DNA from: an uncultured Owenweeksia sp.
GTDB lineage: Bacteria > Bacteroidota > Bacteroidia > Flavobacteriales > Schleiferiaceae
Assembly: GCA_937146805.1 (NCBI GenBank)
Contig: CAKZRR010000053.1
Span: forward strand, 1-64,000
Reading direction: 5' to 3'
DNA length: 64,000 nucleotides
The translations under genes and the position numbers were made by a program. The notes beneath the pieces are model-generated. The model saw nothing but the letters and a program-made list of their open reading frames with translations. It was not told where the DNA came from and did not search any database. Positions 18,216-25,681 of the stretch are shown one piece after another; within the stretch, counting starts at the first letter, position 1; every line of letters begins with the position of its first letter.

Positions 18216-20255
18216 ATGAAACGAATTGGCTTTTTAGCATTCGCAAGCATCTTTTTTATGAGCTGTAATCAACAAACAACTGAAGTTACCGAAGGCACCG
18301 AGCAGGATTCGGTAGTAACCGAAGAAACTATTCCTGCCGATTGGGAGTGGGAAACCGAGCAATTTGCCGACATCCGTATGTTACGGTTTAGAATTGAAGG
18401 TTGGAACAAGCTAAGCTTAGATCAAAAAAAACTGGCTTATTACCTTACACAGGCAGGCCTTTCGGGAAGAGATATTGTTTGGGATCAATACTATCGTCAC
18501 AATTTAGAAATTAGAAAGGCATTAGAGAATGTTTTGAAAAATTACGATGGCGATACCGAAACACCGGACTGGGAAAAATATGTGTTGTACGTAAAGCAAA
18601 TTTGGGTGCACAATGGTATTCATCATAACTACGGCAACTTTAAGGTTATGCCCGAGTTTAGTAAAGATTATTTTCAAAGTTTGTTAAACGCTACCGAAAC
18701 TAGCTTGAGCGAAGAGGCTTTGGATGCTATGTTTAACGATAAGGATTTAAAAAAGGTGAGCAAAGATCCTAAGCAGGATTTGGTGTTAGCATCTGCAGTA
18801 AATTTTTACGATGCCGATATTACGGAGCAAGAGGCTATTGATTTTTACAAAAAGAAAATGGTGGATGGCGATAAGCGCCCTATAAGTTATGGCTTAAATT
18901 CAAAATTGGTACGCAACGAAGCGGGCGGCATTGAAGAAAGAGTATGGAGCGCTAAGGGAATGTACGGAGAGGCCATTACCGAAATTGTTAAGTGGTTGGA
19001 ATTAGCCAAAGGAGTAGCCGAAAATCAGGCGCAGGCCGATGCCTTGGCTTTGCTAATTGAATATTACAATAGTGGAGATTTAAAGAAGTGGGACGAATAC
19101 AATGTTGCTTGGGTAAAAGCTACTGAGGGCGATATTGATTATATCAACTCATTTATTGAAGTGTATGATGACCCTTTAGGTTACAAGGCGACCTACGAAA
19201 CGGTGGTGCAGTTTAAGGATTTTGACGCCAGCGAAAAAATGAAGGTGATTAGTGATAATATTCAATTTTTTGAAGATAATTCACCTATAATGGACGAGCA
19301 CAAAAAGCCCAACGTAACGGGGGTAACGTATAAAATGGTAAACGTAATTGGCGAAGCAGGTGCTACAACACCAATGACACCGATTGGAGTTAACTTGCCT
19401 AATGCCAATTGGATACGTACAGAGCATGGCTCAAAATCGGTGAGCCTTATGAATATTGAAGTAGCCTATGAGCACGCCAAAGGTGCTGGCTTTTTAGAGG
19501 AATTTACTTTTACCAAAGAAGAATTGGAACGCTCTAAAGCCTACAGCAGTATTTCGAGCAAAATGCACACTGCTTTACACGAAGTAGTGGGGCATGCATC
19601 TGGCCGTATTAATGATGGAATAGGCACCCCAAAAGAAACGCTTAAAAATTACTCTTCTACACTTGAAGAAGGTAGAGCCGATTTGGTGGCCCTGTATTAT
19701 ATTATGGATGAAAAATTAATGGAACTAGGTTTAGTAGATACGCTGGATGTAGGCAAGGCTGAGTACGATAGTTATATTAGAAACGGTATGATGCTGCAAC
19801 TACGTAGATTAAAAGTAGGGGAGCAAATTGAAGAAGACCATATGCGCAACCGCCAATTGGTAGCTGCTTGGGCTTTTGAAATGGGCAAAGAAGATAATGT
19901 AATAGAACGTAAAACGCTGGACGGTAAAACCTATTTTGTGGTGAATGATTACACTAAGCTGCGTGCTATTTTTGGCGAGCAATTACGCGAAATTCAACGC
20001 ATAAAAAGTGAAGGCGATTACGAAGCGGGTAAAAACTTAGTAGAGACTTACGGTGTACAAGTAGATGCTCAATTACACCAAGAGGTGTTGGACAGAACAG
20101 CCAGCCTCAACATTCCTCCTTACTCAGGCTTTGTACAGCCAGTACTTAAGCAGGTAATGGAAGGCGATAGCTTAATAGATATTGAAGTAACCTACCCTAA
20201 GGATTTTACCAAGCAAATGTTAATGTTTGGCGAGAAGTATTCCTTTTTAAAGTAA
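18216..20255 (+). CDS. Dipeptidyl-peptidase III family (M49) lipoprotein
   Basis: A 679-residue M49 metallopeptidase that releases dipeptides from peptide N-termini. The zinc motif is the six-residue HEVVGH at 455-460 (M49 uses HExxGH instead of HExxH), with the third-ligand motif EEGRAD at 484-489. The N-terminus MKRIGFLAFASIFFMSC is a lipoprotein signal with Cys17 as the lipidated residue, followed by an acidic linker, so the enzyme is tethered to a membrane and faces the periplasm or surface. Most characterised DPP III enzymes are cytoplasmic, although a Bacteroides homologue is known. An inverted-repeat terminator follows 18 bases after the stop. Confidence 0.93.
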   Translation: MKRIGFLAFASIFFMSCNQQTTEVTEGTEQDSVVTEETIPADWEWETEQFADIRMLRFRIEGWNKLSLDQKKLAYYLTQAGLSGRDIVWDQYYRHNLEIRKALENVLKNYDGDTETPDWEKYVLYVKQIWVHNGIHHNYGNFKVMPEFSKDYFQSLLNATETSLSEEALDAMFNDKDLKKVSKDPKQDLVLASAVNFYDADITEQEAIDFYKKKMVDGDKRPISYGLNSKLVRNEAGGIEERVWSAKGMYGEAITEIVKWLELAKGVAENQAQADALALLIEYYNSGDLKKWDEYNVAWVKATEGDIDYINSFIEVYDDPLGYKATYETVVQFKDFDASEKMKVISDNIQFFEDNSPIMDEHKKPNVTGVTYKMVNVIGEAGATTPMTPIGVNLPNANWIRTEHGSKSVSLMNIEVAYEHAKGAGFLEEFTFTKEELERSKAYSSISSKMHTALHEVVGHASGRINDGIGTPKETLKNYSSTLEEGRADLVALYYIMDEKLMELGLVDTLDVGKAEYDSYIRNGMMLQLRRLKVGEQIEEDHMRNRQLVAAWAFEMGKEDNVIERKTLDGKTYFVVNDYTKLRAIFGEQLREIQRIKSEGDYEAGKNLVETYGVQVDAQLHQEVLDRTASLNIPPYSGFVQPVLKQVMEGDSLIDIEVTYPKDFTKQMLMFGEKYSFLK

Positions 20256-20272
20256 ACAAGCTTCTTTAAATA

Positions 20273-20314
20273 AACCAAAAGCCCCGTAGCGAAAGTTACG
20301 GGGCTTTTGGTTTT
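20273..20314 (+). terminator. Hairpin terminator of the DPP III gene, left boundary of the islet
   Basis: Stem AACCAAAAGCCCCGTA (20273-20288) pairs with TACGGGGCTTTTGGTT (20297-20312) around an 8-base loop, followed by TT. Its central 28 bases match the hairpin at 23616-23649 in opposite orientation with one difference (GCGAAAG against GCGAAAA in the loop). Confidence 0.85.
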
Positions 20315-20427
20315 ATGAGGTAATGGCTTTTTTATGAATGCCATTGATAGGTATATAATAAGACGGTTTTTGACCCAGCTTTGACTTTTCGTAAACCACC
20401 AAATGTCCAAAGTTTTAACAAATTGCT

Positions 20428-21511: not shown

Positions 21512-21681
21512 AATTATTAGGTATTTGATTTTGGTGGCTTATGCTACACTTTAAATTGATTTAGTCAAGTTTAAAAATCACCTATACTATCCGATCAGGG
21601 GTATGTACAAGTGTCTGGTTTTTTTTCTAAAAAACTCACTCAGAAAATCGCTTTCCCCATAGCAAACCCATTCGTCAACAC

Positions 21682-21743
21682 AGCATTCATCTTGGCCTAT
21701 CCGCAAAACAAATGCTTAGTTATTGGTGTGTCGTTTTTTTATT
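21682..21743. repeat. 62-bp direct repeat, copy 1
   Basis: This segment begins AGCATTCATCTTGGCC and ends TCGTTTTTTTATT. It recurs at 22490-22552 with two substitutions and one single-base indel, in the same orientation, 808 bp away. Copy 1 covers the stop codon of the 166-residue membrane protein gene. It contains an imperfect hairpin, GCATT...TTGGCC / GCAAAACAAATGC. It has no T tract in the direction of the gene, so it is not a simple terminator. Confidence 0.9.
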
Positions 21744-22239
21744 CTTTCTTGGTATTCAGCTTTTTCGCTACAAAGTCATAGTTGGTTAAAAGCAAAAATC
21801 CAATTATTAGATTCAGTCCGCTCACTGCCCAATTAAATTTGTCTTGTGAGTTGTATTCAAGTCCGATAACGTCTCCCTTAAATGCAAAAAGTGAATGACT
21901 TAAAAAAGCTGGGGTTTTGTTTAAAATCATAAGTCCACCGATTATAAAAGTTCCGATTTTGATAATGTCAGTCGGTTTTAAGTTACCGATTTCTATTTTT
22001 TCATCATCAAATCCTTTGTCGAGCTTTAATAGTCGAACAACCTTGTCCGCTTTAAATATCAAGACTACAAAAAGTCCAACTACAACAAATATTGCCACGA
22101 CAATCCATAAAATTAAGAGTGCGTCAATGTCCATCATTGCCAATGAAATGTTGCTCGGTAAAGCCGAAAAAAGTGTCGTCACGACTGAGAAAAGTCCGAA
22201 CACTTTTAGTATTAGAATGAAAAAGTCTCTTTTTGTCAT
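21739..22239 (-). CDS. Small integral membrane protein, unknown function
   Basis: A 166-residue protein with four predicted membrane helices: about residues 6-27 (ILILKVFGLFSVVTTLFSAL), 40-63 (LLILWIVVAIFVVVGLFVVL), 92-110 (IIKIGTFIIGGLMILN) and 138-153 (VSGLNLIIGFLLLTNY). The loop between helices 2 and 3 is charged (KADKVVRLLKLDKGFDDEKIEIGNL). No family is recognised. Its stop codon lies inside direct-repeat copy 1, and a 71-bp palindrome begins 22 bases upstream of its ATG, so the gene sits inside an 808-bp repeat-bounded unit. Confidence 0.65.
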   Translation of the reverse strand: MTKRDFFILILKVFGLFSVVTTLFSALPSNISLAMMDIDALLILWIVVAIFVVVGLFVVLIFKADKVVRLLKLDKGFDDEKIEIGNLKPTDIIKIGTFIIGGLMILNKTPAFLSHSLFAFKGDVIGLEYNSQDKFNWAVSGLNLIIGFLLLTNYDFVAKKLNTKKE

Positions 22240-22261
22240 TTAGTTTATGGTTTGTTTAAAT

Positions 22262-22332
22262 GCACGCCAACGCTACGCTAAGAAACGTGTCTCGTAGGGC
22301 ATGTTTTTATAGCGATTGTTGGCATGTCGTGC
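22262..22332. repeat. 71-bp imperfect palindrome
   Basis: Outer arms GCACG and CGTGC (22262-22266, 22328-22332), then GCCAAC and GTTGGC separated from CGCTA and TAGCG by short unequal spacers, with an imperfect inner stem AAACGTG / CATGTTT. It lies between the start of the membrane-protein gene and the 3' end of the TPR gene. Paired boxes with unequal spacers resemble the layout of an integron attC site, but the box sequences do not match the attC consensus. Confidence 0.7.
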
Positions 22333-22489
22333 TTTTTAATTTTTCTTTTATTTTCTCAATTATTTTGGTCGCGTCCGCAACTTTCAAAGTTTAGCTTCAG
22401 TGGATTTATTTTCTTTAAAATAAACAATCATTGTTCAATCACCATCCACCAAATAAATTATCGTCCCTCTATATGAACGATCATCTCTA

Positions 22490-22552
22490 AGCATTCATTT
22501 TTGGCCTATCGGCAAAACAAATGCTTAGTTATTGGTGTGTCGTTTTTTTATT
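22490..22552. repeat. 62-bp direct repeat, copy 2
   Basis: The second copy of the repeat at 21682-21743. Here its hairpin is longer: CTAAGCATT (22487-22495) pairs with AATGCTTAG (22520-22528). The repeat supplies the last codons and the stop of the TPR protein gene (residues KKRHTNN), whereas copy 1 lies mostly past the stop of its gene. Confidence 0.9.
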
Positions 22553-23448
22553 TTTCTTCTTATCAGCCATATAATCAAAGTTATGAAACCAATAAATGTG
22601 GTAAGTCCTGACCAAAACAGAACTTTAAAATTGTCTCGTATAAAATATTGAGCGTCCTCTATCAATTGGTTTGGTTTTGCGTTAAGAGCTAATTTTTCGA
22701 ACTCTTTGATTCGCTTGTTCATCAATTCGGACTCAAATCCATACTCTGTAGCTGCTTCATAACTTTCCAAAGCAGCTTGAACATCTCTAGTTTGAGCTAA
22801 AACATTTCCAAGGTCGAAATAGATATTTCCAACAACGGTGTTTTTAGGTTTAACAAATGTTGTTCGTTCCCTCAATTGATGCCAAATGTGTTCTCTTAAT
22901 TCCTTTAAGTCATATTTTTTTGGATTTGAAGGCTTATCATTAATTCCAAAATCCAATCCAAGGATTGATGATTTTTTATCTGTAGATTCAGAAATTTTGT
23001 ATTCCAAAATTTTAATATGAATCCATTCCGACCCTTTATGTGACTTTGGATTTAATTCGATTGATTTTTTAATCCAAATAAGAGCCGAATCTGGCTGTCC
23101 TATTAATTCAAAAATAGTCCCAAGGTTAGATGCTGTAGTGTACAAGTTTGGTGAACGCAGTTCAATTTCTTCGTAAATGTTTTTAGCCTTTTGGTATTCA
23201 CCTAGGTATGTTAATGCAGCAGCATAGTCGGAATAGTATTCCAGAGAATCAGACCTTTTATAAGCAGTCAATAATTCATCTGATTTACTTCTAAGTTCTA
23301 GGGTGTCTATTTCTCTATTCCAGACTTTACCATTTGATGGGTCAGTGTAAACAACTTCTCCTGTTAATAGAGTTCTGTATTCATTAATACAAGCAAATGA
23401 GCTTTCAATAGAAGCTAAACAAATTAGTATTAGGATTATTTTTTTCAT
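22525..23448 (-). CDS. Tetratricopeptide-repeat protein with C-terminal membrane anchor
   Basis: A 307-residue protein with a signal peptide (MKKIILILICLASIESSFA), a TPR region over about 60-135 (YYSDYAAALTYLGEYQKAKNIYEEIE, NLYTTASNLGTIFELIGQPDSALIWIKKSIEL) and another TPR-like unit near 205-235 (GNIYFDLGNVLAQTRDVQAALESYEAA). A single membrane helix lies near the end (VLFWSGLTTFIGFITLIIWLI), followed by a basic tail (RRKIKKRHTNN). The domain between signal and anchor is therefore periplasmic. The final seven codons come from direct-repeat copy 2, suggesting its original C-terminus was replaced. A 30-bp palindrome lies 18 bases upstream of the ATG. Confidence 0.7.
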   Translation of the reverse strand: MKKIILILICLASIESSFACINEYRTLLTGEVVYTDPSNGKVWNREIDTLELRSKSDELLTAYKRSDSLEYYSDYAAALTYLGEYQKAKNIYEEIELRSPNLYTTASNLGTIFELIGQPDSALIWIKKSIELNPKSHKGSEWIHIKILEYKISESTDKKSSILGLDFGINDKPSNPKKYDLKELREHIWHQLRERTTFVKPKNTVVGNIYFDLGNVLAQTRDVQAALESYEAATEYGFESELMNKRIKEFEKLALNAKPNQLIEDAQYFIRDNFKVLFWSGLTTFIGFITLIIWLIRRKIKKRHTNN

Positions 23449-23465
23449 TTCATGAAGGGTAACTA

Positions 23466-23495
23466 GGGGATAAACAACATGTTGTTTATATCCCC
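23466..23495. repeat. 30-bp palindrome upstream of the TPR gene
   Basis: GGGGATAAACAACA and TGTTGTTTATATCCCC are inverted copies with a two-base bulge and almost no loop. It lies in the 5' region of the TPR gene at 22525-23448 and could be an operator, a leader hairpin or a recombination remnant. Confidence 0.6.
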
Positions 23496-23606
23496 TTTAT
23501 ATTAATTTCAAAAACCCTGTTGCAATACCTGTTTACAACGGTTTTGGCTCTTTGGGTAAATGTAGGAATAAAGCAGTAAAATGCCTTGGTGTTTTTTAAC
23601 CATAAG

Positions 23607-24934: not shown

Positions 24935-25681
24935 ATGAAATTACTGGAAGGAAAAACCGCCCTAATTACAGGAGCTTCTAAAGGAATAGGTGAGGGCATA
25001 GCCCGTGTTTTTGCAGCGCATGGCGCACAAATAGCTTTTACCTATTTATCCTCCGAAGAATCAGCTAAAAAGTTAGAGAATGAGCTGAGCACCTTAGGGA
25101 TAAAAGTAAAAGGATATAAAAGTGATGCCTCTGTATTTGAAGCAGCCGAAGAGTTGGCCAGTCAAGTACAGAAAGACTTTGGCAGTATAGACGTAGTAAT
25201 AAACAATGCCGGTGTAACCCGCGATAACCTCTTAATGCGTATGAAGGAAGAGGATTTTGACCGTGTTATTCAGGTAAACCTAAAATCGGTTTTTAACCTT
25301 ACTAAAGCGGTACAGCGTACCATGCTTAAGCAGCGCTCGGGTTCTATCATTAATATGAGCTCCGTAGTGGGTGTTAAAGGAAATGCCGGTCAATCAAACT
25401 ATGCCGCCTCTAAAGCAGGTATTATTGGTTTCTCTAAGTCTATAGCGTTGGAGCTGGGTTCTAGAAACATTAGATGCAATGTGATTGCACCGGGCTTTAT
25501 TGAAACCGAAATGACGGGCAAGCTAGACCCCGAAACCGTGCAAGGCTGGCGCAATGCTATTCCGTTAAAACGTGGTGGCACCCCGCAAGATATTGCCAAT
25601 GCTTGTCTATTTTTAGCTTCCGATCTAAGTACTTATGTAACAGGTCAAACGTTACAGGTAGATGGTGGAATGCTTACCTAA
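24935..25681 (+). CDS. fabG: 3-oxoacyl-[acyl-carrier-protein] reductase, SDR family
   Basis: A 248-residue short-chain dehydrogenase that fits FabG, which reduces 3-oxoacyl-ACP with NADPH in fatty-acid elongation. Visible motifs: the cofactor loop TGASKGIGEG near residues 13-22, NNAGV, the catalytic Ser in INMSSVVGVKGNAGQ, YAASK as the YxxxK catalytic pair, and the C-terminal FLASDLSTYVTGQTLQVDGGM. The NADPH-preferring layout and family length agree. It stands alone between a divergent T9SS gene and its own terminator. Other fab genes are not adjacent, so a role in another pathway cannot be ruled out. Confidence 0.9.
   Translation: MKLLEGKTALITGASKGIGEGIARVFAAHGAQIAFTYLSSEESAKKLENELSTLGIKVKGYKSDASVFEAAEELASQVQKDFGSIDVVINNAGVTRDNLLMRMKEEDFDRVIQVNLKSVFNLTKAVQRTMLKQRSGSIINMSSVVGVKGNAGQSNYAASKAGIIGFSKSIALELGSRNIRCNVIAPGFIETEMTGKLDPETVQGWRNAIPLKRGGTPQDIANACLFLASDLSTYVTGQTLQVDGGMLT

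Follow-up and report, generated by a model that had tools for sequence, protein, structure and literature searches.

We analyzed a 64,000-nt stretch of DNA from an uncultured Owenweeksia sp. (contig CAKZRR010000053.1, positions 1 to 64,000 of the forward strand; referred to as the window), in which a 62-bp direct repeat is located at the 3' ends of two unrelated minus-strand genes, and found that this repeat very probably belongs to a small integron-type cassette array. The initial annotation of the window had placed the two copies at 21682-21743 (W1) and 22490-22552 (W2) with two substitutions and one indel between them, all of which proved correct; the copies share 55 nt at 96% identity as well as a 12-nt left part, with a start-to-start distance of 808-809 bp. 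As annotated, they overlap the stop regions of the genes at 21739-22239 (membrane protein, 166 amino acids (aa)) and 22525-23448 (TPR protein, 307 aa), and the final codons of the TPR gene (..KKRHTNN*) come from the repeat. The array of mobile cassettes that had been envisaged for this locus was right in kind, as the locus is cassette DNA, while the actual finding is an integron variant.

A search of the source genome of the window (G000, a 3.16-Mb draft of 58 contigs) with the 62-bp query recovered 12 strong copies, or 13 when a diverged one on contig C1 is included. The 12 mapped copies each stand 3' of a small gene that differs from copy to copy and points the same way, an arrangement that the initial annotation had proposed to look for; the gene is on the same strand, and its stop falls at -21 to +9 bp relative to the beginning of the shared element. 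This element, here called Ya, has the consensus AATAACTAAGCATTCGTTTTGCCGATAGGCCAAAAATGAATGCCGTGTTGACGAATCCGGGTTTGCTATGGGGAAAGCGATTTTTTGAGTGAGTTTTTTAAAG on the gene strand and is also present in JAGYIE01, JABFGJ01 (BCD18), JAUICR01 and G008; viral contigs did not contain its pattern. Gene and Ya are separated by a variable box of 7-9 nt, and in most cases this box is reverse complementary to what immediately precedes the start of its own gene, as in GTTAGCAGTA..gene..TACTGCTAA and GTTAGCCAAT..gene..ATTGGCTAA. The match is gene-specific: when the boxes were permuted among genes, with the best match sought in a 100-base region, none of 20,000 permutations reached the observed total, a check that is independent of the box-rule alignment described next. 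Joined as in a circular cassette, the boxes (R'' at the end, R' at the start) form 7-9 of 9 pairs in 10 of 11 cassettes, W2 being the exception. An alignment of nine sites contained 12 pairs changed on both sides (0/500 shuffles) and had a covariation score of 0.402 compared to 0.138 for shuffled sequences and about 0.04-0.094 when slid; this alignment was constructed with the box rule and its box helix is therefore partly chosen. Folding favored the bottom strand in 7 of the 8 attC sites tested. The hairpin core that had been described for the repeat was clear in the 22490 copy (DNA fold -12.2 kcal/mol, z -5.5) and weaker in the 21682 copy (z -0.6), and, as had also been noted, no T tract is present directly 3' of the hairpin on the gene strand.

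The starts of cassette genes in G000 are preceded by one of two conserved stretches that end in a palindrome followed by G^TT, where ^ marks the cut. About 30 attI-like sites are scattered through this genome, many of them with a small gene immediately behind. Contigs C1 and C34 carry a C-terminal tyrosine-recombinase fragment with an attI-like site, of one and the same type, just past its stop, and at another C1 locus a recombinase fragment, a hairpin, a cassette, an attC, a second cassette and Ya follow each other in a row, with both boxes paired. The linkage to a tyrosine recombinase that the initial annotation had suggested checking was thus found in the form of recombinase remnants adjoining array starts. 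The type of attI-like site present in the window occurs after the fragments on C1 and C34 and also after the intact integrases of relatives. Separately, C28:121250-125897 of G000 holds four beta-type attI-like sites within 4.6 kb, where successive genes each have a promoter-like stretch and an attI-like hairpin.

The closest relative of the G000 recombinase fragment is a 384-aa protein (82% identical) in G003, a genome of the same genus, and many more were found in the family. Downstream of intact integrases, a hairpin and G^TT, located 34-120 bp past the integrase stop, are followed by same-strand arrays of small genes with textbook attCs. One-orientation arrays of single-gene cassettes were observed in G058, G017, G053, G016, G021 and G020. 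Pairing between the boxes of the same gene was analyzed by a gene-bounded permutation test, which replaced a crude k-mer count that was too noisy (similar counts on both strands), and was significant in G058, G017, G053, G016 and G021 (P 0.0002-0.011); the stretch read in G020 contained only three genes, all of them paired (P 0.17). As a control, the same permutation revealed no within-gene box pairing in two non-array regions or among the other genes of the window. Duplicated units in G053, G058, G017 and G016 start and end at G^TT, within as well as between arrays, and include a unit of ~482 bp bounded in this manner that is repeated many times in G053. Such clean G^TT-bounded duplicates are the mark expected of site-specific exchange.

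The integrase at these arrays is a tyrosine recombinase of ~380 aa with an extra N-terminal domain of ~95 aa, for which a weak likeness to DUF5710 was seen in 8 of 29 members. The IntI model TIGR02249 gave 215 bits against a cut-off of 265 and matched as two stretches around a gap, placing the protein outside the IntI family by this measure; it also scores under the XerC and XerD cut-offs, and another family member passes the NCBI model 'site-specific tyrosine recombinase/integron integrase'. The KDR-to-HxLRH spacing is 61 aa, compared to 103 in IntI proteins of the same phylum and 67 in XerC, and the IntI-specific domain (~40 aa) is therefore missing. In the phylogenetic tree, IntI (100/100) and the new group (96/86) form separate clades, with long branches that leave the deeper order uncertain. 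A profile search identified the family in 151 of 295 sampled Bacteroidia genomes (93 of 156 genera), and proteins over the IntI cut-off were found in 84 of 296 genomes of the phylum, with only one from class Bacteroidia among the matches listed. Of the 27 integrase loci, drawn from across the class and the family, in which the downstream gene was complete, 16 had first-box pairing of at least 8 nt (0.8 expected, P 5e-5), and the attI palindromes were clearly above their own shuffles in 12 of 19 loci. Among viral relatives of the integrase, most were short, Xer-like and devoid of the N-terminal domain.

Read along the minus strand, the window array leads from the attI-like hairpin through the TPR gene, W2, a decayed stretch, an attC and the membrane-protein cassette to Ya. 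The features of the locus are as follows.

23554-23564, minus strand: candidate cassette promoter, a -7-like TACATTTA that lies in the conserved sequence before attI and is assigned from the general form of the Bacteroidota promoter.
23461-23495, minus strand: attI-like site, a perfect hairpin GGGGATATAAACAACATGTTGTTTATCCCC (23495-23466) followed by CTAG^TT, with the cut between 23463 and 23462.
22525-23448, minus strand: gene of the 307-aa TPR protein, the first behind the attI-like site, with the 5' box TTACCCTTC (from 23462).
22490-22552, minus strand: repeat copy W2, in which the end of the membrane-protein cassette (3' tail plus R'' box CGACACACCAA) is followed by the first ~43 bp of Ya (22533-22491, truncated), with the right side lost at ~22490.
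22329-22489, minus strand: probable gene remnant of a decayed cassette, a broken reading frame ..VADATKIIEKIKEKLKSTTCQQSL, a weak assignment read from the sequence.
22271-22328, minus strand: attC of the decayed cassette, R'' GACATGCCAAC ... GCG^TTGGCGTG.
21679-22270, minus strand: membrane-protein cassette of 592 bp, which starts with TTGGCGTGCATTT and ends with ..CTGTG^ inside Ya; its gene spans 21739-22239 (166 aa).
21682-21743, minus strand: repeat copy W1, comprising stop codon, cassette tail, R'' box CGACACACCAA and Ya hairpin.
21628-21724, minus strand: the complete Ya element of W1, AATAACTAAG-hairpin-GTGTTGACGAA..CTATGGGGAAAGCGATTTT..GAGTTTTTTA.
18216-20255, plus strand: flanking core gene, presumably dipeptidyl-peptidase-3-like.

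This layout does not agree with the 808-bp cassette unit that had been proposed from the spacing of the copies. The G^TT rule gives a membrane-protein cassette of 592 bp (22270-21679), and the clean excision of 808 bp would be achieved only by homologous recombination between the copies, not by cassette recombination. Between the two copies lie 150 bp that resemble a decayed cassette, together with a further attC, which folds better as bottom strand (-15.3, z -2.95) than as top strand (-11.5). The orthologue of the membrane gene in G053, from another genus (59% aa identity), is a cassette with identical TTGGCGTG/CACGCCAA boxes and has an ordinary attC behind it in place of Ya, and the W1 box therefore belongs to the membrane cassette. 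R''/R' pairing of the CGACACACCAA box is 7 of 9 with the membrane gene and 3 of 9 with the TPR gene's own start. Judged from its sequence, W2 is a secondary duplicate in which the 3' end of the membrane cassette was copied over that of the TPR gene, because it carries the box of the membrane cassette, an identical 26 bp upstream and a hairpin variant (AAGCATTTG) common to W1 and W2 alone. Only its position behind the attI-like site suggests that the TPR gene may be a cassette; no cassette boxes were seen at its orthologues in other genera (62% and 57% identity). No tandem repeats were found in the window. In the same-genus genome G003, the flanking core gene directly adjoins the fabG-like gene (window 24935-25681), and since both flanking genes are adjacent there, the block is absent. 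The initial annotation had expected a local chance duplication to reveal itself by the lack of any other copies and by a homologous locus with both genes and no repeats; what we observed were many copies and, in G003, a locus without the whole block.

Each cassette consists of one small gene, with an R'' box at its end that is reverse complementary to its start behind G^TT. In the mechanism we propose, the two would pair in the excised circle as the base of an attC presumably folded from a single strand. A tyrosine recombinase encoded just upstream of attI would cut at G^TT and insert cassette circles at the attI hairpin, and the same enzyme would putatively catalyze the excision or duplication of cassettes. 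In the window, duplication of the membrane-cassette 3' end onto the TPR-gene 3' end gave rise to the two copies. We consider it rather probable that Bacteroidia possess a second integron lineage which split off from, or arose outside, the IntI clade, whose integrase recognizes hairpin attI and attC despite lacking the IntI-specific domain, perhaps via its N-terminal domain instead, and which is found in roughly every second genome of the class and was overlooked by IntI-based surveys. If so, the known range of integrons would be larger and a big pool of unstudied cassettes would be opened; it would also become testable which part of the integrase reads the folded single-stranded attC and whether cassette capture had a single or a repeated origin.

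The system resembles sedentary chromosomal integrons (IntI/attI/attC; Vibrio, Treponema) in its one-gene cassettes of single orientation with complementary end boxes, in a structured attC with bottom-strand preference and a G^TT exchange point, in arrays located directly at attI beside a tyrosine recombinase, and in cassettes that are duplicated as clean units and include toxin-antitoxin-like ones. In contrast to these integrons, its integrase is without the IntI-specific domain, remains under the IntI cut-off, forms its own clade and has the extra ~95 N-terminal aa, while attI is at most loci a palindromic hairpin 1-7 nt before the cut, after the integrase stop and in the same orientation, and some genomes here contain dozens of scattered attI-like sites. 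The G000 arrays without a nearby intact integrase are similar to clusters of attC sites lacking integrases (CALIN; IntegronFinder, PMC9024848), but they are short (1-3 cassettes), still begin at an attI-like site and are spread over about 30 places. IntI is defined, and recognized in surveys, by an additional IntI-specific domain (PMC2426708, PMC9668308), a domain that has been regarded as indispensable for activity (Messier and Roy 2001, as cited in PMC2426708). According to the sections of PMC8138268 on simple tyrosine recombinases, the insertion is not fully conserved within their integron-like subgroup, into which the new integrases would fit as insertion-less members; in these sections the survey ties no insertion-less members to cassette arrays, whereas here such integrases sit at attI and arrays. 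For Bacteroidetes, integrase-only elements alone were reported in an earlier survey and one complete integron in Salinibacter (IntegronFinder 2, PMC9024848), and reviews count Bacteroidota among the integron phyla (PMC8618304). No description of this Bacteroidia system was found in the literature searched, which was that outside subscription journals and preprints, and one may nevertheless be published.

Several observations weigh against an integron-type array. Ya is identical in all copies and reaches past the supposed cut point, unlike ordinary attCs, the TPR gene is unpaired with its 3' box, and the evidence for cassette exchange comes from sequence, with neither an excised circle nor a product of recombination observed. 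In addition, no intact integrase of this system was found in the 58-contig draft of G000, where the search for IntI returned only XerC/XerD-like proteins, an IS91-linked recombinase, a phage-like integrase and short fragments; the arrays of this genome are therefore probably relics. The window array is most likely a relic as well, and any present-day activity would require an integrase acting in trans.

With regard to its role, Ya may either serve array-final cassettes as their common attC or be a small element that was inserted behind R''. In the latter case, Ya would be a small non-autonomous mobile element that inserted in one orientation right after the R'' of integron attC sites, a tentative reading which is compatible with an integron and concerns the nature of Ya only; the repeat would then, conceivably, be an insertion into cassette ends and not the cassettes' own attC, a view toward which we do not lean. 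Such an insertion would account for box-AACAAAGAACTG occurring directly at five cassette ends, for the 4-6 Ya copies that sit between box-AA and that same downstream sequence, for the ordinary attC at the place of the window's Ya in the G053 membrane cassette, and for a Ya sequence that is constant 60-100 bp past the supposed cut. Yet Ya folds together with the cassette's own start as a good attC with R''/R' helix, unpaired spacer and inner hairpin, no Ya was seen outside a cassette end, and Ya displays no terminal inverted repeats, clear target duplication or identified transposase. IS1111-attC elements and group IIC-attC introns use attC sites as targets, with a fixed orientation of insertion, and Ya may share this targeting with them, but it is ~100-170 bp long and noncoding, and no related transposase or intron was identified.

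Explanations that dispense with cassettes are far less convincing. That W1 and W2 are closer to each other than to other copies and share the 26 bp upstream would fit a local duplication by chance or replication slippage, which holds for the origin of W2 only; as a full account it is refuted, and very improbable, since the element is found 13 times at the 3' ends of unrelated genes, occurs in other genomes as well and is accompanied by gene-specific boxes. It is equally hard to believe that the repeat is a repetitive extragenic palindromic (REP)-like element or a hairpin of the 3' untranslated region, stabilizing or terminating transcripts, that follows genes by coincidence. The hairpin, its location right after stop codons and the dispersed copies would be in line with this, but a box that reflects the start of its own gene, situated hundreds of bases upstream, the attI sites, the recombinase remnants and the whole block missing in a relative are left unexplained, and no Rfam family matched the repeat above its gathering score. 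Terminator, REP element and chance duplication were rejected as full accounts, and the integron-type cassette array is the reading we retain.

A number of Ya copies have additional sequences inside or beside them. All three copies in BCD18 (L077, L078 and L079) contain an identical short insert, CCTGACCGCCGGCAGGAGG, exactly at the expected G^TT cut. At G000 C42:1-120 (L038), Ya is interrupted by a sequence that matches the end of an element, which we take to be IS200-like, without a difference over 77 bp; this element lies upstream of the C29b cassette (C29 ~47 kb, L034). On C1 of G000 (L069:326-2187), a tyrosine recombinase lies beside a putative transposase gene, presumably of the IS91 type, ~250 bp from an oppositely facing Ya copy.

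Cassettes of G058 and G017 have toxin-antitoxin-like gene pairs in common (L139:15586-16843 and L141:11786-14976), which exhibit 86-89% DNA identity in different surroundings. The G017 array (L141:12379-13356, minus strand with the integrase taken as plus) also includes a transposase, presumably IS110/IS1111 family-like, inside an attC with a short direct repeat flanking it. In the window itself, the AT-rich region 20166-20422 gave weak Rfam matches on both strands, below all gathering scores, that probably reflect composition.
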